NCBI GenBank assembly: GCA_013288305.1
Contig: JABDCD010000009.1
Location: 1 to 38,789, forward strand
Direction of reading: 5' to 3'
DNA length: 38,789 nucleotides
Source: Alphaproteobacteria bacterium
GTDB taxonomy: Bacteria > Pseudomonadota > Alphaproteobacteria > Rickettsiales > SXRF01
The notes beneath the pieces were generated by a model. That model was not told where the DNA came from and did no database searches. It worked only from the letters and a program-made list of their open reading frames with translations. Numbering within the stretch: the first letter of the stretch is position 1; each line of letters starts with the position of its first letter. Shown one piece after another: positions 3,869 to 25,556 of the stretch. A program made the translations under genes and the position numbers.

Positions 3869-5385
3869 TCGCTGCGAAGCAGCGACCGCCCCGTCATCTC
3901 CGCCGGCTGGGGCAGCCCAAGCCATTGCAGCAGGGTGGGTGCGACGTCGGATAGCTTGCCCTCCGGCAGACGCGGGTTTTTCCCCTTGAAGCGCTCGGTG
4001 ACGAGTATGACTGGAACGAGATTCAGCGTGTGCGCCGTGTGCGGCTGCTGGGTAGCATCGTCGAACATCATTTCGGCATTGCCGTGATCGGCGGTAATCA
4101 GCAGCGCACCGCCCCTGGCCAGCGTTGCTTCGACCAATTTTCCCAGGCAACCGTCCACCGCCTCGACGGCCTTGGCGGCGGCTTCGATATTGCCGGTATG
4201 CCCCACCATATCGGTGTTGGCGTAATTAACGACGATGACGTCGAACCGCTCCGCTGCTATCGCTTCCAGTAACTTATCCGTGATTTCCGGCGCCGACATT
4301 TCCGGCTTCAGATCATAGGTCGCCACTTTGGGCGACGGCACCAGGATGCGCTCCTCGCCGGGAAATTCCCGCTCGCGCCCGCCGTTGAAGAAAAACGTCA
4401 CATGCGCATATTTTTCCGTCTCCGCGATGCGCAGTTGCTTTAATCCCGCCTTGGAAATGATTTCTCCGAAAATATTCGTGAGCGGCTGCGGCGCAAACAG
4501 GGCGGGCATGAATTCACTCAAGCGTTCGCTATACTCGACCATGCCCAGTGCGGCGGAAAACCTTATTTTTTTACATGGGAATTCCTTGAATTCCGGATCG
4601 AGCAAGGCCGTCAATATTTCGCGCGCGCGGTCGGCGCGAAAATTCACCATCAGCAACCCGTCGCCGTCTTTCATTCCCGCATAATCGCCGATGGCGCAGG
4701 GAAGCACGAATTCATCAGTGATGCTATTTTTATAGCTTTGCTCAATCGCAGCGGCGGCGCTGGCGAAACGCTCGCCCGTTGCAGCAGTCATCGTATCGTA
4801 CGCCTTCCGCACGCGCTCCCAGCGCTGATCGCGGTCCATGGCGTAATAACGGCCGGAGATGGTTGCAGGTTGCAAGATGCAAGATGCAAGATGCTCCAAC
4901 GCGCTTTTGGGCGGCGTGTCGCGCCCGTCGAGGAAGGCGTGAACCTTCACCGCAATGCCCTGAGCCGTCAGCAGGTTCGCCAGCGCCATCATATGGTTTT
5001 GATGAGAATGCACACCTCCGTCCGACAGCAATCCCAGCAGATGCACGATGCCGGTTTTTTGTTTCACCTGCGTAATGAAATCTTTCAGAAGCGGATTCTT
5101 TGCCAGCGCCCCCCCCTCAATCGCCGCGTCGATCCTGGGCAGATCCTGCATCAGCACGCGGCCCGAGCCGATATTCATGTGGCCGACTTCGGAATTGCCC
5201 ATCTGGCCGGAAGGCAGCCCGACATGGCGTTCCGAAGCGTTGATGAGGCCGTGCGGATAATCGCGCATCAGGCCGTCCCACACCGGCGTCCGCGCGCGGG
5301 CAATGGCGTTATACGCCAGCTCCTCGCGATGGCCCCAGCCATCGAGGATTACTAATACTACCGGTTTGGGACGCTGTGAGGACAC
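3862..5385 (-). CDS. gpmI: 2,3-bisphosphoglycerate-independent phosphoglycerate mutase
   Basis: A 507-residue cytosolic Mn-dependent enzyme that interconverts 3- and 2-phosphoglycerate in glycolysis. The sequence shows the family throughout: VILDGWG (Asp15 metal ligand), MGNSEVGHMNIG with the catalytic Ser65, the loop HSHQNH, FLDGRDTPP, GRYYAMDRDQRW, NFRADRARE, YANTDMVGHTGN and LITADHGNAE. The start is GTG, overlapping the phoU stop codon by one base (TAGTG), so it is translationally coupled to phoU. Length is normal for the family (about 510). One oddity is a heptamer repeat at 4862-4896 that encodes a Leu-Ala-Ser-Cys-Ile-Leu-Gln stretch just before GRYYAMDRD, a position where family members are variable. 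Confidence 0.97.
   Translation of the reverse strand: MSSQRPKPVVLVILDGWGHREELAYNAIARARTPVWDGLMRDYPHGLINASERHVGLPSGQMGNSEVGHMNIGSGRVLMQDLPRIDAAIEGGALAKNPLLKDFITQVKQKTGIVHLLGLLSDGGVHSHQNHMMALANLLTAQGIAVKVHAFLDGRDTPPKSALEHLASCILQPATISGRYYAMDRDQRWERVRKAYDTMTAATGERFASAAAAIEQSYKNSITDEFVLPCAIGDYAGMKDGDGLLMVNFRADRAREILTALLDPEFKEFPCKKIRFSAALGMVEYSERLSEFMPALFAPQPLTNIFGEIISKAGLKQLRIAETEKYAHVTFFFNGGREREFPGEERILVPSPKVATYDLKPEMSAPEITDKLLEAIAAERFDVIVVNYANTDMVGHTGNIEAAAKAVEAVDGCLGKLVEATLARGGALLITADHGNAEMMFDDATQQPHTAHTLNLVPVILVTERFKGKNPRLPEGKLSDVAPTLLQWLGLPQPAEMTGRSLLRSDR
4862..4896. repeat. Heptanucleotide tandem repeat inside gpmI
   Basis: Five consecutive 7-base units read GTTGCAG, GTTGCAA, GATGCAA, GATGCAA, GATGCTC. 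Three units make 21 bases, so gain or loss of three units keeps the frame. The repeat lies between the domain-linking region and the conserved GRYYAMDRD motif of phosphoglycerate mutase. Confidence 0.75.
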
Positions 5386-6083
5386 TAGGTTGACGATTCG
5401 TCGGATTGCCGGAGCATGGCCTTATCGGCGCGCTTGCCCGAGGCGACGTAATACACGGTTTTGGCCAGATTGGTCGTATAATCGGCGACGCGCTCCAGGT
5501 TCTTGGCGGCGAACACCACCTGCGTACAGGCCGCCGCATCGGCCGGCGAGGCGGACATTTCCTTCTGCATGGCGGCAAAAACCTCATGATAGAGATCGTC
5601 GATTTCCTGGTCGCGTTTCCATACCTCGGTTGCTTTCTGCATGTCTTTTTCGTTAAAGGCCCGGAGCGCGTCATCGAGCATTCCGACGATGATGTCGGCC
5701 ATCGACTCCAGTTTTTTAATGACCGGTTCCGGCGCGAAGGTGCCCATCTTGACGCTGCGCTTGACGGTGTTTTTGGCGAGGTCGCCGGCGCGCTCCAGCA
5801 TCCCGGTGATTTTGAGCACCGAGGTGACGAAGCGCAAATCGATGGCCAGCGGATTCTGCAGCGCCAGCACGATGGTCGCCTCCTCCTCGATCTGCACGTC
5901 GAGTTCGTTGATGTGCTTGTCGGCGGCCTTGGCCTCGGCGACGCGGCTTTCATCACGCGAGCGGAAGGATTGCTTCGCCGCCAGCACCATCTTGCGCACC
6001 TCGCCGCCCATGTCGAGGATGAGCTGCATCAGGTGCTGCAACTGCTTGTCATATGAACGTAGCGTATGCTGGCTTAAATTCAT
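5385..6083 (-). CDS. phoU: Phosphate signalling / transport regulator PhoU
   Basis: A 232-residue all-helical protein with the two tandem three-helix PhoU repeats. Recognisable segments are LMQLILDMGGEVRKMV, EEEATIVLALQNPLAIDLRFV, KITGMLERAGDLAKN and, in the second half, AKNLERVADYTTNLAK. PhoU links the Pst phosphate transporter to the PhoR-PhoB two-component system and represses it when phosphate is plentiful. Here it stands apart from pst or pho genes and is joined to gpmI by a one-base overlap, so phosphate status and glycolysis may be co-expressed. An AAGGAG site 6 bases before the ATG supports the start. The 100-base gap to the divergent beta-barrel gene is AT-rich and should hold both promoters. 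Confidence 0.95.
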   Translation of the reverse strand: MNLSQHTLRSYDKQLQHLMQLILDMGGEVRKMVLAAKQSFRSRDESRVAEAKAADKHINELDVQIEEEATIVLALQNPLAIDLRFVTSVLKITGMLERAGDLAKNTVKRSVKMGTFAPEPVIKKLESMADIIVGMLDDALRAFNEKDMQKATEVWKRDQEIDDLYHEVFAAMQKEMSASPADAAACTQVVFAAKNLERVADYTTNLAKTVYYVASGKRADKAMLRQSDESST

Positions 6084-6186
6084 GGCTCCGGCTCCTTAAT
6101 AATCCATATTACTCTATATGATGATGGTTTTACAGGAGTTTTTATCATTAGGATATTTTTAATGAATAGCTGTTATGGGTGACGGT

Positions 6187-6984
6187 ATGAAATCCGTGAC
6201 ACGATGCCTGTGGGTGCTATGCGTCATCGGCGGTTTTGCCGCCACCGATGCGCGAGCCGACAATAGCTATAGCATAGGCATCGAAGGATTCCGCGATAGC
6301 TATAAGGAATATTTCATCGATGCGGTTGCCGGAGTGGATCCGCATGTCGACGTCCATACCGACTACGGCTCGGTGACGGCAAACTACCAACACAGTGCCA
6401 ACGGTTATTTCACCGCCGTCGACGGCCGCTATTCCCAGGGCAATTCCAATTATAAATCGCTGAGCGGCGTCGCCAACCATATTCCCGACAAGGAAGGTGA
6501 AGCGCGGCTGCGTTTCGGCGAGAGCATCGTCGTATGGCATGGCATCGTGATGCCCTATATCGGCCTCGGCGCGCGCCTGTTCTACGATAAATTCAAGGAA
6601 GCAGGGCCGGGAGGGTATGACCGGCACATCGCGCAGCTCTACGCCCCGATCGGCGCCACCTATCAATTCAACTGGAGAGGATGGATGTTCCGGCCCAACG
6701 TCGAAATCGACCCGCTGTTCTGGGGCAGGGTAACCTCGAAGCTGGGAGAAATTCCCGGTTACGGCGATGTCACCAATGCCCAGCATGGCGGCGTGGGACT
6801 CCGCGGCGAATTCATGGCCGGACAGCAATATAAATCTTTCGGCTGGGAAGTCGGGCCGTTCGTGCGCTACTGGCATGTCGATACGTCGGATATCGCTCCT
6901 CTCCCCGGCGCTCCCGGCGTAGGAGTGGTGGAACCCAAAAACGCCCGGCTCCAGGCCGGCGGTGCGCTGCGCGTCAATTTTTAG
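6187..6984 (+). CDS. Outer-membrane beta-barrel protein, unknown substrate
   Basis: A 265-residue exported protein. The signal peptide (MKSV... to about ATDARA) fits a start at the ATG at 6187, which has a GGGTGA-like site before it. An in-frame ATG at 6175 would add four residues and has no such site. The mature part has alternating hydrophobic/aromatic strands (SYSIGIEGF, VTANYQHSANGYFTAVDGRY, GIVMPYIGLGARLFYD, FGWEVGPFVRYWHV) and ends in Phe preceded by LRVN, a typical C-terminal sorting signal for barrel insertion. No plug, TonB box or named family is evident. It stands alone, divergent from phoU and upstream of the zinc locus, with no visible Zur box of its own. Confidence 0.75.
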   Translation: MKSVTRCLWVLCVIGGFAATDARADNSYSIGIEGFRDSYKEYFIDAVAGVDPHVDVHTDYGSVTANYQHSANGYFTAVDGRYSQGNSNYKSLSGVANHIPDKEGEARLRFGESIVVWHGIVMPYIGLGARLFYDKFKEAGPGGYDRHIAQLYAPIGATYQFNWRGWMFRPNVEIDPLFWGRVTSKLGEIPGYGDVTNAQHGGVGLRGEFMAGQQYKSFGWEVGPFVRYWHVDTSDIAPLPGAPGVGVVEPKNARLQAGGALRVNF

Positions 6985-7024
6985 CTAGCGGCTACTCCTT
7001 CCAAAGAATTGCTTGCGCGGAAAA

Positions 7025-7041
7025 ATGTTATAATATAACAT
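7025..7041. promoter_or_regulatory. Probable Zur box upstream of zur-znuCB
   Basis: ATGTTATA-A-TATAACAT is a perfect 8+1+8 palindrome, followed by a further AAC. It resembles the AT-rich Zur operators known from Alphaproteobacteria and contains a TATAAT (7029-7034) that could be a -10 element, so binding would block transcription. The same motif in diverged form lies before the histidine-rich gene and znuA (9314-9342). Its position 129 bases before zur, the first gene of the operon, implies autoregulation. Confidence 0.7.
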
Positions 7042-7066
7042 AACTTCTCTGGAAGCCTTAAGTATG

Positions 7067-7153
7067 AATCCTGTGAGCCGTGTAAACGGCTGCACAGGAT
7101 CCTGCCAGAACAGTAAATGGATCCTGCGCAATCGCTTCGCGCTTCGCAGGATT
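7067..7153. repeat. Dispersed double-hairpin element, copy 2
   Basis: Hairpin 1 (7068-7100) is ATCCTGTG-AGCCGT-GTAA-ACGGCT-G-CACAGGAT, a perfect 8+6 stem. Hairpin 2 (7121-7152) has outer arms ATCCTGCG and CGCAGGAT with a decayed inner stem. The two outer stems match copy 1 at 2548-2620. It lies in the probable 5' untranslated region of zur, between the Zur box and the zur ribosome binding site. Confidence 0.8.
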
Positions 7154-7169
7154 TGCCAGGGAAGTTTTT

Positions 7170-7580
7170 ATGCGCATGAAAAATACGCCGTTATCCCGCC
7201 ATAGCCAGAAAGTGCTGGCGCTGCTTTCCAAAAGCGCCACGCCGCTGACCGCCTACGACTTGCTGGATCGGATGCGCGCGTCCGGCGTCAAGGCGCCGCC
7301 GACGGTATACCGCGCGCTCGATGCGCTGATCGAGCGCGGGCTGGTACACCGCATCGAGTCGCTGGGGGCGTTCGTCGCCTGCCACCGCTGCGAAGAAGAT
7401 CATGCGGCGGCGGCGCAATTCGCCGTGTGCCGTTCGTGCGGTACGGCGGTGGAAATTCTCGATCGCCGGCTCACCGCGCTGATTCAAAAAATCGGCAAGA
7501 CCATGAAATTCCACATCGAGCGTGAAATGCTGGAAGTGCTCGGCCTATGCGCGCGCTGCGGCGGGAAAGCGCGGGCCTGA
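7170..7580 (+). CDS. zur: Zinc uptake regulator, Fur family (Zur)
   Basis: A 136-residue Fur-family repressor. The N-terminal winged helix (about 8-65) includes TPLTAYDLLDRM and PPTVYRALDALIERGLVHRIES, the recognition-helix region of the family. The C-terminal part has the metal-site segment CHRCEEDH and two CxxC motifs, CRSC and CARC, typical of the structural zinc site. An AGGGAAG site lies 5 bases before the ATG. The gene heads an operon with znuC and znuB, and a strong palindrome upstream matches an expected operator. This context favours Zur over Fur. With zinc bound it should repress znu genes; under zinc shortage it releases them. Confidence 0.92.
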   Translation: MRMKNTPLSRHSQKVLALLSKSATPLTAYDLLDRMRASGVKAPPTVYRALDALIERGLVHRIESLGAFVACHRCEEDHAAAAQFAVCRSCGTAVEILDRRLTALIQKIGKTMKFHIEREMLEVLGLCARCGGKARA

Positions 7581-7582
7581 AC

Positions 7583-7672
7583 ATGTTCTATTGGAGCGCG
7601 GCACGGCGCATGGGGCTTTCCGCGATGATATTGCTGGCACTGTGGGGCCTGGCGCTATGGGCGATGGGATAG
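7583..7672 (+). CDS. Putative 29-residue single-span membrane microprotein between zur and znuC
   Basis: Two bases after the zur stop an ATG opens a 29-codon frame ending in TAG at 7670-7672, two bases before the znuC ATG. The product begins MFYWSAARRMG and continues as an almost unbroken hydrophobic stretch (AMILLALWGLALWAMG). The positive residues come before the stretch, so it would span the inner membrane once. The exact fit between two genes suggests a real coding unit, or at least a translational bridge that couples znuC to zur. No strong ribosome binding site precedes it. Nothing in the sequence shows a function; a small subunit or regulator of the ZnuBC transporter is a guess. Confidence 0.5.
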   Translation: MFYWSAARRMGLSAMILLALWGLALWAMG

Positions 7673-7674
7673 CG

Positions 7675-8415
7675 ATGAGCGCCGCCGTCACCCTCGATAA
7701 TGTCACCATCAGCTATAACCGTCACCCGGCCGTGCATCACGTAAGCGGCACGTTCGAGGCCGGATCGCTGACGGCCGTCGCCGGTCCCAACGGGGCGGGT
7801 AAAAGCACATTGCTCAAAGGCATTGCCGGGATTTTATCGCCCGACGAGGGGCATATAAGCATCAAAGGCGCGACGCGCAAACGCATCGCCTACCTGCCGC
7901 AGGCCGCCGAATTGCAGCGCGATTTCCCGATGACGGTGCTGCACATGATCGTCACCGGCTATTGGCAGAAAACCGGCGGAACCGGCGCCATCACCGCGGC
8001 GATGAGGGAGCAAGCGTCGGAGGCGCTGGCCGCCGTCGGCTTGCGCGGATTCGAGAAACGCCCGCTGTCCGGCCTGTCGGCGGGGCAGTTCCAGCGCGCG
8101 CTGTTTGCGCGGCTGTTGCTGCAGGACGCGGCGCTGATGTTGCTCGATGAGCCGTTCGCCGCCATCGACGCCGACACCACGGCGCAGCTGATGGACATCA
8201 TCCTGCGCTGGCACCAGGAAAACCGCACCGTCATCTGCGTGCTGCACGATTTCGAACAGATAAAAAAATATTTTCCGCAATGCCTCCTGCTCGCGCGCGA
8301 ATGCATCGCCTGGGACAGCTCCGCTAAAGCATTGCAACCCGAACATCTGCTGGGTGCACGTTTCTTCCATGATAACTGGAACGCCGCTCCCAACCTGTGT
8401 GAGCGCGCCGTATGA
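7675..8415 (+). CDS. znuC: Zinc ABC transporter ATP-binding protein ZnuC
   Basis: A 246-residue cytoplasmic ATPase energising high-affinity zinc import. Walker A is GPNGAGKST, the Q-loop lies at YLPQAAE, the signature is LSAGQFQRALFARLLLQ, Walker B is LMLLDEPFAAID, and the H-loop is VICVLHD. The frame extends upstream to 7522 inside zur, but the ATG at 7675 (MSAAVTLDNV) matches where ABC ATPases normally begin and follows the microprotein stop by two bases. It overlaps znuB by four bases (ATGA). The zinc assignment rests on the adjacent zur, znuB and znuA. Confidence 0.93.
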   Translation: MSAAVTLDNVTISYNRHPAVHHVSGTFEAGSLTAVAGPNGAGKSTLLKGIAGILSPDEGHISIKGATRKRIAYLPQAAELQRDFPMTVLHMIVTGYWQKTGGTGAITAAMREQASEALAAVGLRGFEKRPLSGLSAGQFQRALFARLLLQDAALMLLDEPFAAIDADTTAQLMDIILRWHQENRTVICVLHDFEQIKKYFPQCLLLARECIAWDSSAKALQPEHLLGARFFHDNWNAAPNLCERAV

Positions 8416-9284
8416 TGTTATATGAATACGCCCTCCAGCCCTTCGTCGATTACGGCTTCATGCGCCGGGCGCTGGCGGCATGCGCGGCGCTGGCCGTCGG
8501 CGGCGCGCCGCTGGGAGTCTTCCTGGTATTGCGCCGCATGGCGCTGGCCGGCGACGCCATGTCGCACGCCATCCTGCCCGGCGTGTCGCTGGCCTTCCTG
8601 TGTTTCGGATTGTCGCTGGAGGCGATGACGCTGGGCGGCCTACTCGCAGGACTGGCGGTGGCCTTCGCCGCCGGAGCCGTCACCCGCCTCACGCCGCTGA
8701 AAGAAGACGCCAGCTTCACCGGTACCTATCTGCTGTCGCTGGCGGCCGGCGTGTTGATTATTTCCGTGCATGGCAGCAGCATCGATCTGATGCATGTGCT
8801 GTTCGGCAACGTGCTGGCAGTGGGCCGGGAATCGTTGCTGCTGGTCACGTCCATCGCCACCGTCTCGCTGCTAACGCTGGCCGCGATGTACCGCAGCCTC
8901 ATCGTCGAATGTTTCGATCCGGGATACCTGCGCGCCGCCGGGGGCAACGGCGCGGCGATGCACCAGCTGTTTCTCGGGCTGGTGGTGCTCAATCTCGTCG
9001 CGGCATTCCAGGCGCTGGGCACGCTGATGGCGCTGGGCATCATGGTCTTGCCCGCCATCGCCTCGCGCTTGTGGAGCCGCGACATCGACGGCGCCATCGC
9101 GCTTTCCATCTTCTTTGGCCTGTGCTCGGCCACGATCGGGTTGCTGTTGTCGTATCATTACGGCCTGCCCTCCGGCCCGGCCATCGTGCTGGTGGCGGGA
9201 TTGCTCTATGTCATCTCCGTCCTGTTCGGACGGCAGGGCGGCATCGCCGGGCGCTTTTTCCGCGAGCGGCATTATGCAGCTTAA
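8412..9284 (+). CDS. znuB: Zinc ABC transporter permease ZnuB
   Basis: A 290-residue inner-membrane permease of the ABC-3 family with about eight or nine hydrophobic segments. Family hallmarks are PLGVFLVLRRMALAGDAMSHAILPG near residues 33-58, with the conserved SHA..PG, and the later ALGTLMALGIMVLPAIASRLW, the coupling region that contacts the ATPase. It overlaps znuC by four bases, so translation is coupled. The gene ends 75 bases before the next start, and that gap holds a second Zur-box-like sequence, so the zinc locus is probably two transcription units. Confidence 0.94.
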   Translation: MMLYEYALQPFVDYGFMRRALAACAALAVGGAPLGVFLVLRRMALAGDAMSHAILPGVSLAFLCFGLSLEAMTLGGLLAGLAVAFAAGAVTRLTPLKEDASFTGTYLLSLAAGVLIISVHGSSIDLMHVLFGNVLAVGRESLLLVTSIATVSLLTLAAMYRSLIVECFDPGYLRAAGGNGAAMHQLFLGLVVLNLVAAFQALGTLMALGIMVLPAIASRLWSRDIDGAIALSIFFGLCSATIGLLLSYHYGLPSGPAIVLVAGLLYVISVLFGRQGGIAGRFFRERHYAA

Positions 9285-9313
9285 GCACCGTTTTCTCTTG
9301 CATCAGGAATAAT

Positions 9314-9342
9314 ATGTTATAACATTACATATGATATAACAT
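9314..9342. promoter_or_regulatory. Probable Zur box(es) upstream of the histidine-rich gene and znuA
   Basis: ATGTTATA-A-CATTACAT (9314-9330) has one arm identical to the 7025 box and a second arm matching at 6 of 8 bases; its core ATGTTATAACAT is a perfect 12-base palindrome. A further half site TATAACAT lies at 9335-9342. A TTGCAT at 9298-9303 may be part of a promoter. The site begins 45 bases before the ATG at 9359, an ordinary operator position. Confidence 0.65.
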
Positions 9343-9358
9343 AACTGCTACGGAAACC

Positions 9359-10195
9359 ATGACCGCCGAATCCGACAAAACCACCGAAGACCGCGCCGAG
9401 GACATCGCCTACACCATCAACCATGCACTCGCCTGCACGGCGACGGATGCGCTGGAGCCTTACGTCGATAACTGGTTTCAGAAAAAGCTCGGCTTTCGCT
9501 TTCCGCTCGGCTGCGGCCACGATCACGGCGAAGAGCATAAACACAAGCATGGTCCCGGTTGCGCCCATCCCCACCACGAAGGCAATCTGTGGCGCTGGTA
9601 CGCCGGCGAGCTGGTCGGCGATTTCGGAGCGGTGCCGCTCACCATTGCCGCGCAGCGTTATGCGCCGTCTTTCATGAACGGCCTGCGTCGGGTCATAGAG
9701 CCGGTACTGGGTCCCGTTTTCACCATCGGCGCACGATGGTCAGCGCAGTCGTGGGCAAAGCGGCAAGGGGTCGGCATGGATTCAAAAGAGTGCAGGGAAA
9801 AACAGCAACAGATTTACGCGCATGAAGTGAGCCACCTGCCGCAGGCGCTGCTGTGGACGGCATCGTCCATCACGCTCAACCTGTGCACGCAAAAGTGGTT
9901 GGGAAACAAAGCTCCTTTGTGGCAGATGGGCGCGGCCAAGGCCATGGGGGCGAGCCTGAACACGGCGCTGGTAGTGGGCGGGCGCGCCTTGGCCCCGCAA
10001 ACGGCGCGGTCATGGGACAAATTCACCAGCCGGAATATTTTTCTTCCGGCGACGAAAACCATCGGAAAAATTTTCGGCGTCGACAAAACAACCGTCGACC
10101 GCATGGGCAAAAAAGAAGATAATCTTAAAAATAATGGCTGGACGGAACGGATTAATCCTGTGAGCCGTCAGGCTGCACAGGATCAGGAAAGATGA
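9359..10195 (+). CDS. Histidine-rich protein of unknown function in the Zur/Znu locus
   Basis: A 278-residue protein that I do not recognise. Near residues 57-79 it has a dense metal-binding-like cluster (GCGHDHGEEHKHKHGPGC, then AHPHHEG) with about nine His and two Cys. A second candidate metal motif, HEVSH, lies near 159-163. Hydrophobic or amphipathic stretches (about 80-105, 165-185 and 195-220) suggest membrane association, but there is no classical signal peptide. It has its own probable Zur box and overlaps znuA by four bases (ATGA), so it is expected to be made with the zinc-binding protein under zinc shortage. The last ~13 codons (INPVSRQAAQDQ...) are written by a half copy of the dispersed hairpin element, so the C-terminus may be recently altered. 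A zinc-handling role is inferred from context and composition. Confidence 0.75.
   Translation: MTAESDKTTEDRAEDIAYTINHALACTATDALEPYVDNWFQKKLGFRFPLGCGHDHGEEHKHKHGPGCAHPHHEGNLWRWYAGELVGDFGAVPLTIAAQRYAPSFMNGLRRVIEPVLGPVFTIGARWSAQSWAKRQGVGMDSKECREKQQQIYAHEVSHLPQALLWTASSITLNLCTQKWLGNKAPLWQMGAAKAMGASLNTALVVGGRALAPQTARSWDKFTSRNIFLPATKTIGKIFGVDKTTVDRMGKKEDNLKNNGWTERINPVSRQAAQDQER
10155..10183. repeat. Dispersed hairpin element, copy 3 (first hairpin only)
   Basis: ATCCTGTG-AGCC-GTCA-GGCT-G-CACAGGAT matches hairpin 1 of the copies at 2548 and 7068 in outer arms and design. Here it is inside a coding region, encoding the last residues of the histidine-rich protein, and ends 8 bases before the znuA ATG. 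The second hairpin is absent. Confidence 0.75.
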
Positions 10196-11070
10196 TTATG
10201 TTCCGATTATTATTTGCCGTATTTTTATTATTCCCCGCCTCCGCCCATGCCGAAAAGCTCAAGTTGGTGGCGAGTTTCAGCATCCTGGGCGACATGGCGC
10301 AGCTGGTGGGCGGCGATGATGTCGATGTCAAAACGCTGGTCGGACCCGACGGCGACGCGCATGTCTACGAGCCGTCCCCCGCCGACGCCAAAACTATCGT
10401 CTCAGCCAATTTGGTCATCGTCAACGGGCTGGGTTTCGAGGGCTGGATGGAAAGGCTGATCGCTTCTTCCGGCTACGCCGGGCCGGTCGTCGTCGCCTCG
10501 CACGGCATCGAGCCGCTGGCATTTTCGGGCGAAGGATTGACGCAGGATCCGCACGCCTGGCAGAGTTTAGCCAACGGCAGAATCTATGTCGCCAACATCC
10601 GCGACGCGCTGATTGCAGCCGACGGCGAACATGCGGATAAATACCGCGCCAACGCCGCGCATTACCTGAAACAGATCGATGCGCTGGATAGATGGGTCAA
10701 AAACGAAATCGCCACCGTTCCTGCCGGAAAACGCAAGGTCATCACCTCGCACGACGCCTTCCAGTATTTTGCCAGACGCTATGGCGTGCAGTTCATCGCG
10801 CCGCTGGGCGTCAGCACGGAAAGCGAGGCCTCGGCCGCCGACATCGCCCGCCTCATCGACCAGATCCGCGCCGGCAAAGTCCGTGCCGTCTTCATGGAAA
10901 ACATCACCGATGCGCGGCTGATCCGCCAGCTTGAAAGCGACGGCGGCGCCTATGTCGGCGGCACGCTGTATTCGGACGCATTATCCTCTGCGGGCGGCCC
11001 CGCCGCCACCTACCTCGCCATGTTCAGGCATAACGTGATACAACTGGTGGAGGGGATGGAGTATAATTAG
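10192..11070 (+). CDS. znuA: Zinc ABC transporter periplasmic substrate-binding protein ZnuA
   Basis: A 292-residue cluster A-I (TroA/ZnuA) binding protein with a signal peptide ending SAHA (about residue 20). Candidate zinc ligands are the His in GDAHVYEPSP, the His in DPHAWQS, the His in TSHDAFQYFARRYG and the Asp in YSDALSS. It captures zinc in the periplasm and delivers it to ZnuBC. The His/Asp-rich flexible loop that many ZnuA proteins carry between the first two ligands is not present; the His-rich sequence is instead in the gene immediately upstream, whose stop overlaps this start. It converges on the diguanylate cyclase gene with a 10-base gap. Confidence 0.93.
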   Translation: MIMFRLLFAVFLLFPASAHAEKLKLVASFSILGDMAQLVGGDDVDVKTLVGPDGDAHVYEPSPADAKTIVSANLVIVNGLGFEGWMERLIASSGYAGPVVVASHGIEPLAFSGEGLTQDPHAWQSLANGRIYVANIRDALIAADGEHADKYRANAAHYLKQIDALDRWVKNEIATVPAGKRKVITSHDAFQYFARRYGVQFIAPLGVSTESEASAADIARLIDQIRAGKVRAVFMENITDARLIRQLESDGGAYVGGTLYSDALSSAGGPAATYLAMFRHNVIQLVEGMEYN

Positions 11071-21021: not shown

Positions 21022-21037
21022 TATGGTGCCGGAGCCG
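21022..21037 (+). other. Distal attachment site of the tRNA-Phe island
   Basis: TATGGTGCCGGAGCCG repeats the tRNA-Phe end TATGGTGCCCGGAGCCGG with one C missing and in the same orientation. It is 28 bases after the ABC ATPase stop. A 7-base inverted pair, GAATGCA (21012-21018) and TGCATTC (21053-21059), flanks it. Confidence 0.65.
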
Positions 21038-21098
21038 CTAACGAATAGGAGCTGCATTCATTTGTTAAACATAAAATTTTTCTCATTCGACTTTCAGA

Positions 21099-21120
21099 GA
21101 TACCCCCAAAGGTACCCCGT
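21099..21120 (+). other. Putative integrase arm-binding motif, left end
   Basis: GATACCCCCAAAGGTACCCC here corresponds to GATACCCCTAAAAGTACCCC at 25346-25365 in the same orientation. Such pairs inside both ends of an integrated element suggest arm-type sites for the integrase or its excision factor. This one ends at the methyltransferase stop codon. Confidence 0.5.
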
Positions 21121-21935
21121 CAGTCTCTATCTTGGGCTTTTGCCACCATTGATATTGGAGCAGCACTATAATCGCTACCACTCGTTCTTTTGTGTGGAGC
21201 ATAAACTTTTGCCGGTCGCTTTTTCCCACCATCCTGTGGCAATCGGTCGCCATGATCTCCGTTCCATAAAATACCAGGGCGGGGGATACGATAATAGTTG
21301 GATTCTGCCGCTGGATCAGAAACTGATTTCTCATAAACGCCACGTACAAAGCGACCCATAGCACCTTTTAGATATTCTTCTGAAAGCTCTATACACTGCC
21401 AATGACGTTTCAGGCGTTGGCAAACCTCGCCTGTAATGCAACTTCCGCCGAAGGGATCAATTACAATGTCGCCCGAATCAGTAAGCATACGAATGAAATA
21501 TTCAGGTAACTCAGCAGGAAATCTTGCTGGATGCACTGGCAAGTTGTTTTCCTGACAATAGCGGATGTAATAACTATTGCTTTCAGTGTGTGGAATGGCA
21601 ATCAAATTAGGCGGAATGGCTGCCCCATTATTTTGCCCAAATTTATTGCTAATATCATGGCCAGATGGTCGTCGCTTGGCTTTATAACCACTGGCTAACA
21701 GATTCATCATGCTTGGACTATAGGGTTGTAATACACGTCGATTGCTCGCTTTTGGCCAAGGTGTTTTTGATAACCACCATACAGTGTTAATGGCATCTTT
21801 CACGCGCACGCGTCGCACTGTCACCCACTCAGCGGGACTGGGCAACTTCGACGGGTTCCACCAATAAAATTCTTGTGCTAGATGGAACCCATATTCCTCG
21901 CACAGCATAATAAGCAACTTAAAATGATAAAGGCT
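21120..21935 (-). pseudogene. 5'-truncated beta-class DNA methyltransferase
   Basis: The product has segments characteristic of a site-specific DNA methyltransferase: QEFYWWNPSKLPSPAEWV, AINTVWWLSKTPWPK, SGHDISNKFGQNNGAAIPPNLI, PAELPEYFIRMLTD and the SAM-binding motif DPFGGSCITGEVCQRL near its C-terminus. In beta-class enzymes the catalytic SPPY/DPPY motif comes first, roughly 100 residues before this point; it is missing. The frame stays open to an ATG at 22040, but those extra codons (22040 to about 21936) are the antisense of the helicase gene, so the homology ends at about 21935. The gene has lost its 5' part and should be inactive as a methylase. The break coincides with the truncated 5' end of the helicase. 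Confidence 0.75.
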
Positions 21936-21963
21936 GCGGGTAATTGCGCCGCAAACGGAGATT

Positions 21964-24021
21964 ATGCTTGAAGTCAAAATTAATGGCACGCTCCCGGAAG
22001 ACAGAGCAGAACGCCGCAAAATTTTCGTCGATGCCGCCACGCAGGCGGCCTACCAGCTTTATCAGGACTATGAAGACCCTGACTCTAAAATCCGGCTGAT
22101 GGGCAAGCCCTTCATCGCCTATACGCGCGATACCGCCCATGCCAGATCGCTGCGCAGCTATTTCAGCGAGCAGATAGGAAAAGCCTTGGATGACGACCCA
22201 AGCATTTTGCAGAGAAAAAAATACGAGCATTTTGCGGAGGCGATTAGCGGCAAGGAATCGGATAAGATTCAAGACGCGGTTCTTGAACGGCTCAGGAGCG
22301 GTAAAACGTTAGGTGTGGGAAATGCGGAATTATGGCGGGAAGGCGCGGATATACCGGCAGTAAAGGTAGTCATTTCTAACCCGACCGCTTCCCGCGTAAA
22401 GAAGATCCAAACAGTGGGCCGCGGTGGGCGCATGATCCAAGATTTACCGAAAAATGACCCAAGGCAACATGCCTATGTGGTTAGCCTCTTTTTCCGGGTA
22501 AACGGCAAAATTGTCGGCAAGCCGGTGTTCTACCACCAACTGGTGGATGCCGCCGAGCTTGGGCAGTTGGTGAGTACTACTATCGACCTCGGCGGCACTA
22601 CGGGTGTGGGGGGAAACACAAGAGGCAGAAATGGAGGTGAAGATTTAGGTGGAGATATTGACATTGACGTGGAAGGAGGCAACGGCGGAAACGGAAATGA
22701 GCCTGTACGCCCCCCAAAAATTCCGGTTAAAAAACTGCCGCTGGTTATTTCGAGCAATATTGAGGATGTAAGAAGGATTGATGATGAAGTTGCTGGTGCG
22801 CTTTATCCAGAAAAAACGGATAAAAATTATCTGAGCAATAGTATTTTTTCAAAATTGATTGGAGAATATAAAACTATTGGTGACGTAGGGTCTACTCCAG
22901 CTTTCTCAGAAATATGGTCAAGGATAGAGGCTGCTTATCAAAAAGACCCTAATAATCCGGTAGTTGATGGACACAAGGTAAATTGCGGACTTTTCTCAAG
23001 TGATGGAAAAATAAATTTTTATGTACATAGCGATGAGCAAAATTGGTATAAGGCAAAACTGGGTAAGAAGTTAATTACCGTAATAGGTGATAAAAATAAT
23101 AATCCTGATGTACTGGGAAAAACAGAATTTGCAAGGTTAGTAGGAGGTGCTACTGGAAAAGTTGGTTACTTTACCCCTGCATTTGAGAATTTATGGTCAG
23201 AAATTGGGAATGCATGTTGTGAGAATCTCCAAGCCCCAGAAATTGAAGGACACAAAATTAAAGCGGGGTATTATAGAAATGGCAGGCATATTATTTTATG
23301 TGTGGATAAGATAGAAGAAGGCTGGGGCAGAAAATGCCTAGGAACGGAATTAAAAACTGAAAATTTATTGACGAAAAGACAATTTGCTGACCTTGTCGGT
23401 GGAGTGATAAGAGAAGGCTCAAAAGTTTCTTATACTAAAAATTTCGAAGCACTCTGGGCAAGCATAGAAAGTGCTTACGAGAAAGATCCCGATAATCCTA
23501 TCGTGGATGGATATAGGGTTAAATGTGCTTTTAAGAGAAGCGGTGGCCCGCATTCTCATTTGTATATTGATAAGAGCGAACAGGTCTGGGCAGAAAAAAA
23601 ATTGGGCACTGAAAAAGCCACTAAGGAACATAAAATAAAGAAAGATTTTGCCAAACTTATTGGCCAGTATAAATACATTGGAGGAGAAAAAAGAGAATAC
23701 ACTCCAGAATTTGAAGAATTATGGTCAAAAGCTCAGGCGGCCCATCAGAAAGATGCCAATAATCCCATTGTAGACGGGCATAAGGTTCATTGCAGAACTT
23801 ATAGGCCATATGCTTTTCGTATTCATCAGGATGAAGTTGATTGGGCAAAACAATGGATTGCCGAAAAAATAAAAGCGCGAAAGCAGGGCATAGAACCGGC
23901 GGAAGATGATGCGGAAGACGATAGGGCGCATCTCAAAAAACCCCGCCCAAACCAAAAAACAGACATTTCTCGCGGCAGCGCCCATATCGCCGACCGTTCC
24001 GGGCGCTCGCGCAAAAAATGA
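21964..24021 (+). CDS. Truncated SF2 helicase C-terminal half fused to four copies of an unknown ~88-residue domain
   Basis: A 685-residue frame. Residues 1-205 look like the second RecA domain of an SF2/ResIII-type helicase: MGKPFIAYTRDTAHARSL, VGNAELWREGADIPAVKVVI (motif V region) and QTVGRGGRM at 149-157 (motif VI, arginine finger). Walker A and the DEAD/DEAH box are absent, so the N-terminal half has been lost and it cannot be a complete helicase. A Gly/Asn/Asp-rich linker (206-250) leads to four tandem domains (about 291-383, 384-469, 470-558, 559-640) and a basic tail. An in-frame TAA at 21928 closes the frame upstream, and GGAG before the ATG at 21964 could allow expression. The lost half probably went with the 5' end of the adjoining methyltransferase in one rearrangement. 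Confidence 0.75.
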   Translation: MLEVKINGTLPEDRAERRKIFVDAATQAAYQLYQDYEDPDSKIRLMGKPFIAYTRDTAHARSLRSYFSEQIGKALDDDPSILQRKKYEHFAEAISGKESDKIQDAVLERLRSGKTLGVGNAELWREGADIPAVKVVISNPTASRVKKIQTVGRGGRMIQDLPKNDPRQHAYVVSLFFRVNGKIVGKPVFYHQLVDAAELGQLVSTTIDLGGTTGVGGNTRGRNGGEDLGGDIDIDVEGGNGGNGNEPVRPPKIPVKKLPLVISSNIEDVRRIDDEVAGALYPEKTDKNYLSNSIFSKLIGEYKTIGDVGSTPAFSEIWSRIEAAYQKDPNNPVVDGHKVNCGLFSSDGKINFYVHSDEQNWYKAKLGKKLITVIGDKNNNPDVLGKTEFARLVGGATGKVGYFTPAFENLWSEIGNACCENLQAPEIEGHKIKAGYYRNGRHIILCVDKIEEGWGRKCLGTELKTENLLTKRQFADLVGGVIREGSKVSYTKNFEALWASIESAYEKDPDNPIVDGYRVKCAFKRSGGPHSHLYIDKSEQVWAEKKLGTEKATKEHKIKKDFAKLIGQYKYIGGEKREYTPEFEELWSKAQAAHQKDANNPIVDGHKVHCRTYRPYAFRIHQDEVDWAKQWIAEKIKARKQGIEPAEDDAEDDRAHLKKPRPNQKTDISRGSAHIADRSGRSRKK
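22834..23880 (+). repeat. Four tandem coding repeats (~88 residues each)
   Basis: Copies start near 22834, 23114, 23371 and 23638. The shared pattern is F-x-x-L-[IV]-G-G, then [YF]T-x-x-F-x-x-LW-S-x-[IA], then A-x-x-K-D-x-[ND]-NP-[IV]-VDGH-[KR]-V-x-C, then an aromatic/Ile strand, then D-[KE]-x-E-x-x-W-x-x-K-x-LGTE. Copy 2 is the most diverged (ENLQAPEIEGHKI in place of the KDPNNP...VDGHKV segment). The DNA copies are not identical, so the array is old. I do not recognise the domain. Confidence 0.8.
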
Positions 24022-25322: not shown

Positions 25323-25345
25323 GGGACACCTCCGGGACAGTTATT

Positions 25346-25376
25346 GATACCCCTAAAAGTACCCCCAGATACCCCG
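25346..25376 (+). other. Putative integrase arm-binding motifs, right end
   Basis: GATACCCCTAAAAGTACCCC followed by CAGATACCCCG gives two or three copies of a TACCCC-type motif upstream of the integrase gene. The first part matches the motif at 21099-21118 with two mismatches. Because it is just upstream of the integrase start, it may also affect integrase expression. Confidence 0.5.
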
Positions 25377-25478
25377 ACTGTCACTAAAATAATGCGAATG
25401 ACGGCGAATAATAAATACGCCATTATCCTTGTATTTATTTATGTTTTTTGAATAATGGCGAACAATGGCGGGGAAGGA

Positions 25479-25496
25479 TATGGTGCCCGGAGCCGG
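25479..25496 (+). other. Attachment site at the tRNA-Phe end of the island
   Basis: TATGGTGCCCGGAGCCGG covers the CCA end and acceptor/T-stem side of tRNA-Phe and is repeated, with one base lost, at 21022-21037. Confidence 0.65.
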
Positions 25497-25556
25497 AATC
25501 GAACCAGCGACACAGGGATTTTCAGTCCCTTGCTCTACCAACTGAGCTATCCGGGC
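25481..25556 (-). tRNA. tRNA-Phe (anticodon GAA)
   Basis: The minus strand gives a 76-base cloverleaf: acceptor GCCCGGA pairs with TCCGGGC, followed by A and an encoded CCA end. The D-arm reads GCTCAGTTGGTAGAGC. The anticodon stem-loop GGGACTGAAAATCCC holds GAA, and the T-loop is GGTTCGATTCC. The gene is intact, because the island has restored its 3' end. Confidence 0.97.

Follow-up and report, generated by a model that had tools for sequence, protein, structure and literature searches.

Organization of the locus

The window, meaning the whole 38,789-nucleotide stretch of DNA that was analysed, contains an open reading frame of 685 residues that encodes, in one uninterrupted frame, half of a helicase, a linker, four tandem repeats and a basic tail (Table 1). 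Residues 1–200 correspond to the second RecA domain of a superfamily 2 (SF2) helicase. The phrog_16 DNA helicase profile matched this ORF at 2.7e-8 and Helicase_C matched it at 3e-4, just under the Pfam cut-off, and the helicase half is 35% identical to residues 271–472 of a helicase from the same order that has an intact N terminus (genome G125). Neither a Walker A nor a DExH motif was found within the ORF; both occur in the first RecA domain of its relatives, whose intact helicase core is of the ResIII/DEAD type. The missing half was not found elsewhere in the source genome assembly, which is 55% complete. Divergent from the closest helicase relative lies a gene for an uncharacterized 246-residue protein; the contig there stops before the expected repeats.

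The repeat unit spans approximately 86 residues. When each copy was scored with a hidden Markov model (HMM) of the other three, copies 1 to 4 gave 86.0, 56.0, 78.5 and 76.4 bits, against maxima of 9.0, 4.1, 5.9 and 8.1 bits among 1,000 shuffled sequences per copy. The four repeats are real. Their pairwise identity averages 35% and reaches 44% at most, with copy 2 being the most divergent. The earlier note on this DNA had described four tandem copies of about 88 residues in an AT-rich array, marked by the landmarks F-x-x-L-[IV]-G, T-x-x-F-x-x-LW, NP-[IV]-VDGH-[KR]-V-x-C and W-x-x-K-x-LGTE. The copies were borne out by the scores above, the landmarks are present, diverging most in copy 2 (where one of them reads APEIEGHKIKA), and the G+C content is 34–40% per copy compared with 56% for the whole window.

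The same note had placed the array behind a helicase remnant, on a mobile island and beside a DNA methyltransferase remnant, and all three descriptions hold. A putative tyrosine integrase, identified by reading its sequence, adjoins a tRNA-Phe gene, the end of which is imperfectly repeated at the far edge; these are features of a tRNA-integrated island. TACCCC-rich, similar repeats can be read just inside both ends, and as the att-like copy and the end repeats mark the limits, the island measures approximately 4.5 kb. The methyltransferase remnant matched PDLC03323 at 6.9e-83 over profile positions 90–296 of 330 and is 57% identical to an Ensifer protein, with clear homology from about Ensifer residue 160; the TSPP motif of this full-length relative falls in the N-terminal part that the window gene lacks. 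A second methyltransferase of the same family (59% identity over 217 residues), apparently complete and with TSPP present, is encoded on contig 29 of the same genome.

Homology to the methyltransferase reaches its limit near 21950, and homology to the helicase begins at 21928–21931. The window gene is a remnant: the motor half of the helicase and the catalytic end of the methyltransferase are both absent at one shared junction. One deletion that joined two divergent genes, fusing the 5′-truncated helicase to the 5′-truncated methyltransferase of the same island, would explain this junction; an assembly join could also have produced it. Because the ATP-binding half of the motor is lost, the helicase encoded in the window is probably inactive.

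Table 1 Features of the window and of related loci (positions without a locus prefix are those of the window)
Feature	Position	Strand	Basis or remark
Left att-like copy of tRNA-Phe 3′ end, TGGTGCC-GGAGCCG, one base short	21024..21037	+	~0.02 one-deletion copies expected per shuffled window
Left arm-like repeat GATACCCCCAAAGGTACCCCG	21095..21118	+	Direct reading; resembles right-end sequence about 25345-25385
Beta-class DNA methyltransferase remnant, 5′ end (TSPP motif) missing	21120..21950	-	PDLC03323, Ensifer alignment
Junction, helicase homology start abuts or overlaps methyltransferase homology	21928..21963	+	Homology limits
ORF, helicase half to basic tail	21964..24021	+	
SF2 helicase, second RecA domain only (motifs IV-VI)	21964..22563	+	Helicase_C, phrog_16, G125 alignment
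Gly/Asp-rich linker	22564..22818	+	Sequence; net charge -5
Repeat array	22822..23880	+	
Repeat 1	22822..23082	+	Profile match and leave-one-out score; predicted MerR-like winged-HTH-type domain
Repeat 2	23104..23361	+	Profile match and leave-one-out score; AlphaFold pLDDT 89.5
Repeat 3	23362..23625	+	Profile match and leave-one-out score; AlphaFold pLDDT 86.5
Repeat 4	23623..23880	+	Profile match and leave-one-out score
Lys/Arg-rich C-terminal tail	23881..24021	+	10 K/R against 2 D/E in last 30 residues
Putative tyrosine integrase, 405 aa	24105..25322	-	ORF; identity by sequence reading
tRNA-Phe (gaa), integration site	25481..25556	-	tRNA call
Large protein and helicase-array gene	L042:10353-16502 and 7847-10384	-	
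Large protein and helicase-array gene	L016:7705-11961 and 4880-7717	-	
Large protein and helicase-array gene	L011:9742-12294 and 7321-9708	-	
Two adjacent paralogues (G005)	L016:984-4289	+	
One-copy protein, 290 aa (G007)	L012:10586-11458	+	
SF2 helicase with repeats of no detectable relation, 813 aa (G053)	L026:4445-6886	-	
Protein next to closest helicase relative, 246 aa	L025:3703-4443	-	
SMC-type ATPase and SIR2_2 protein (Methylobacterium aquaticum plasmid)	L029:12733-17008	-	
Second methyltransferase (window genome, contig 29)	L046:4102-5091	+	

A rare domain family linked to helicases

We searched for the repeat in domain libraries and in genomes. No model in Pfam, PHROGs, NCBIfam or PADLOC scored over its threshold on the repeat. 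The window repeats by themselves found nothing in phage, viral and plasmid sequences, and a scan of the genome contigs with the repeat alignment was equally empty. In 263 genomes of the order, the four-copy model found two proteins, both in genome G007: the C-terminal part of a 795-residue SF2 helicase and a 290-residue protein with one copy, recovered blind at 4e-9 and 5.5e-8. A six-copy model added no members across 385 genomes of the class. Searching with a helicase relative led to two plasmid proteins, one from Bosea sp. ANAM02 (WP_173050389.1) and one encoded by an unannotated 1181-residue ORF of Methylobacterium aquaticum. The six-copy profile, built from the order only, scored 48.8 bits on the Methylobacterium C terminus and 18.2 bits on that of the Bosea protein, and none of 1,000 shuffles scored as high for either. 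An iterated model counted four Bosea and six Methylobacterium copies, a count that is circular, as the model already contained those copies; a split-half comparison of profiles (window and G007 copies versus Bosea and Methylobacterium copies) gave 97.9% probability over 75 columns. The resulting 16-copy model recovered one more member in the order genomes, a helicase in G058 (6.4e-6), to which a helicase in G005 is related over nearly its full length. In a sequence search of the PDB the same profile matched designed and unrelated proteins only.

The family is rare, occurring in two to four genomes per 200–263 of the order, and, among 384 other genomes in the class, the helicase was found in one. 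No member of the repeat family was present in 234 genomes across the phylum, the phage and viral collections contained no close relatives of the protein, and our literature search, mostly of freely accessible papers, found no description of the repeats. Every multi-copy array found (window, G007, G058, G005, Bosea and Methylobacterium) sits C-terminal to an SF2 helicase, and the sole case lacking a helicase is the G007 protein with its single copy, which is encoded among peptide-transport genes and followed by a phosphoribosyltransferase-like gene. Both claims of the earlier note on this point, that the domain belongs to no well-described family and that the array is linked to helicases, were thus supported; the repeats form a domain family that is rare, absent from the catalogues and associated with helicases. 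Arrays seem to expand within lineages, because the window copies are closer to one another (35% on average) than to copies elsewhere (14–25%).

Several candidates were rejected. Ribosomal protein S24e (PF01282) scored 19.7–22.7 bits against a gathering cut-off of 24.5, and on one of 16 copies only. A profile match on contig 18 of G000 (E 4e-4) fell on a gene for sulfite reductase that is read in a different frame, and in G462 the helicase is related, with marginal matches only for the repeats. Genome G053 encodes an SF2 helicase that adjoins a tyrosine integrase and ends in four tandem repeats of about 86 residues, 49–72% identical to one another and with no detectable relation to the window repeat (hhalign probability 0.3; 65 of 1,000 shuffles scored equally high). 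We treated this array as an analogue, perhaps a parallel instance of this design. Basic tails like that of the window ORF are found in the G007 helicase, the G007 290-residue protein and the G053 protein.

Predicted fold and conservation of the repeat

A MerR/excisionase-type winged helix–turn–helix (HTH) had been proposed from the sequence pattern before the structure searches began. AlphaFold models of copy 3 (pTM 0.76) and, as a replicate, copy 2 (pTM 0.79; pLDDT values in Table 1) share one topology, in which two helices are followed by a β-hairpin, the presumptive wing, and a third helix; the model of copy 3 has an extra short hairpin between helices 1 and 2. The Bosea and Methylobacterium copies are shorter in this stretch, like a canonical HTH. 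Both models had the MerR regulator CvkR as their top VIA-align match (Z 5.7, rmsd 3.4, 64 aligned residues for one model; Z 4.4, rmsd 4.9, 63 aligned for the other), and the further matches were HiNmlR, RacA, CarH, SoxR, Rad14/XPA, BldC and Xis, so that the best solved structures are of the MerR, XPA and Xis types. These Z-scores are low (4–6) and may mean a common arrangement only. Foldseek returned no significant match in the PDB or among viral models, and many of its weak viral matches were HTH, Cox or PrtN-like proteins. MerR-type Pfam models matched none of the 16 copies, and no PDB sequence match was obtained. Taken together, the models make it probable that the repeat adopts a MerR/excisionase-type winged-HTH fold.

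Conserved across the 16 copies are the hydrophobic core, the glycines and one tryptophan of helix 2 (15 of 16), and the exposed positions of helix 2 are variable. In the wing, position 61 is lysine or arginine in 11 of the 16 copies and acidic in none, and position 54 is lysine or arginine in 60%. If the models are right, this pattern suits a wing that grips the DNA backbone and variable reading heads. The net charge is −1 to +4 per copy and −10 for the Bosea array, unlike that of typical DNA-binding modules, and the window copies have a somewhat acidic helix 2. The near-neutral copies and the charge of the Bosea array leave room for protein binding.

Gene neighbourhoods

On the Methylobacterium plasmid, the helicase-array gene has as neighbours an ORF for a PolB-like exonuclease, an SMC-type ATPase resembling LmuB (1.4e-31) and, at 5e-5 and marginally under the Pfam cut-off, a SIR2_2 protein. 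The ATPase, which has a CPLC motif, and the SIR2_2 protein form a Lamassu-like pair; SIR2 is listed among the effector domains of Lamassu systems (PMC10586767), and the pair thus fits the published composition. The Bosea neighbours are a RecD2-like protein, a 1010-residue protein and an MmeI-type IIG enzyme (1.6e-155), the last separated by two other genes. A defence-like setting at two of two plasmid loci, a raw count, is suggestive. A methyltransferase as general partner of the array, as might be expected from the window, did not hold up: the window has a remnant, and two other genes separate the Bosea MmeI-type gene from the array.

In G007, G005 and G058 the neighbours are chromosomal, and the gene immediately upstream of the helicase array codes for a large uncharacterized protein (850 to 2049 residues); two of these three proteins share a 64-residue similarity (37%, 3e-5). 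Beside the G005 helicase-array gene lie two adjacent, uncharacterized paralogues of 546 and 554 residues that are 27% identical. Chromosomal genes, read from the sequence and including an lpxC-like gene, also surround the G462 helicase. At least four related loci (G007, G005, G058 and G462) have ordinary chromosomal surroundings, which give no hint of a defence island. Nor was the helicase seen to carry a fused nuclease or other effector.

A possible DNA-gripping array on a helicase motor

The overall reading that we put forward, in which we place about even confidence, is that a MerR-like winged-HTH array on an SF2 helicase grips DNA and so holds the motor on its target. About three to six modules at the C terminus of an SF2 (ResIII/RadD-like) DNA helicase would bind an extended DNA site, with basic wing residues contacting the backbone and variable helix-2 residues providing preference. 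The array would keep the ATP-driven motor on this target, and the enzyme might then translocate along the DNA or remodel it. On the predicted fold, tethering of the helicase to DNA is the most likely role of the array. A defence role for the family is plausible, and mobile versions might, more tentatively, act against phages or plasmids. The earlier note had suggested that the repeats may recognise DNA or another invading target for a helicase-based defence system, with specificity set by copy number and divergence. This suggestion is partly supported: the lack of a library match, the link to helicases, the predicted fold and the defence-type genes next to the two plasmid relatives speak for it, and DNA binding, defence and a specificity set by the copies are conjectural. 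We think it improbable that the family forms a class of counter-invader helicases in which diverging MerR-like modules read an extended DNA address and duplication and divergence shift the invader that is targeted.

The array might instead be an adaptor that binds protein and docks the helicase on a partner or a phage protein. The near-neutral or negative charge of the arrays is consistent with this, the structural matches include MerR-like CbpM bound to a J-domain (3ucs, Z 2.9), and the upstream genes of G007, G005 and G058, two of them with products that share a short similarity, could supply the partner. However, the better structural matches are mostly DNA-binding domains, the basic wing positions are conserved and the plasmid members have no large partner, and we regard an adaptor as rather unlikely.

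Two other readings also place the array on DNA. An integrase adjoins both the window gene and the G053 helicase with its own four-copy array, and the helicase domain is nearest to the phage DNA helicases of phrog_16, as would fit a replication or maintenance helicase encoded by the element, the array binding the element's origin in the manner of an SF2 origin-binding helicase. Yet a search for iteron-like repeats around the window gene found none, several members lie on chromosomes, where no integrase was seen in their vicinity, and the phage and viral collections lack close relatives; we give this reading little credence. A host RadD-like helicase for repair or fork remodelling, in which the array binds particular DNA structures, would be in keeping with the match of the RadD model to the G053 helicase (4.3e-13), the chromosomal position of G007, G005, G058 and G462, and the XPA/Rad14 repair domains among the structural matches. 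Its extreme rarity in the order and class and its patchy, partly mobile contexts argue against such a function, which seems quite unlikely. The DNA-gripping array remains the reading that we prefer.

Relation to known systems

The repeat family amounts to a protein domain overlooked by the main family libraries, and it is tied to an alphaproteobacterial helicase family with arrays of variable length. Should the array read DNA sequence, the motor would carry a modular device for recognition, and the intact Bosea and Methylobacterium proteins allow a direct test.

Because comparisons at the sequence level fell short in each case, we do not assign the family to MerR, RadD or PADLOC systems. MerR, excisionase and XPA domains (CvkR, SoxR, RacA, BldC and Xis) resemble the repeat in the predicted order of HTH, hairpin wing and C-terminal helix, but share no sequence-level similarity with it; the repeat has a long helix 2, the window copies have extra residues between helices 1 and 2, and the repeats form tandem arrays on a helicase, whereas MerR-type domains occur as a dimer with an effector domain. 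RadD-like/ResIII SF2 helicases (phrog_16 in phages) have the same helicase core as the intact relatives, but all score far under the RadD cut-off and the array lies outside those models. In PADLOC-DB 2.0.0 the whole protein matched no system component, with a weak similarity to mREase_IV confined to the helicase region. DndG-like proteins, BrxA, BrxC and PglW contain two to four tandem winged-HTH domains, which evolve fast and have been proposed as extended interfaces between defence complexes and DNA (PMC10853773, PMC12839542). By description these BREX and Dnd arrays resemble the repeat array, at most as an analogy, and the term MerR is absent from both papers. They differ from it in having another type of ATPase; no BREX or Dnd genes were recognised near the array, and the repeat itself had no PADLOC match.
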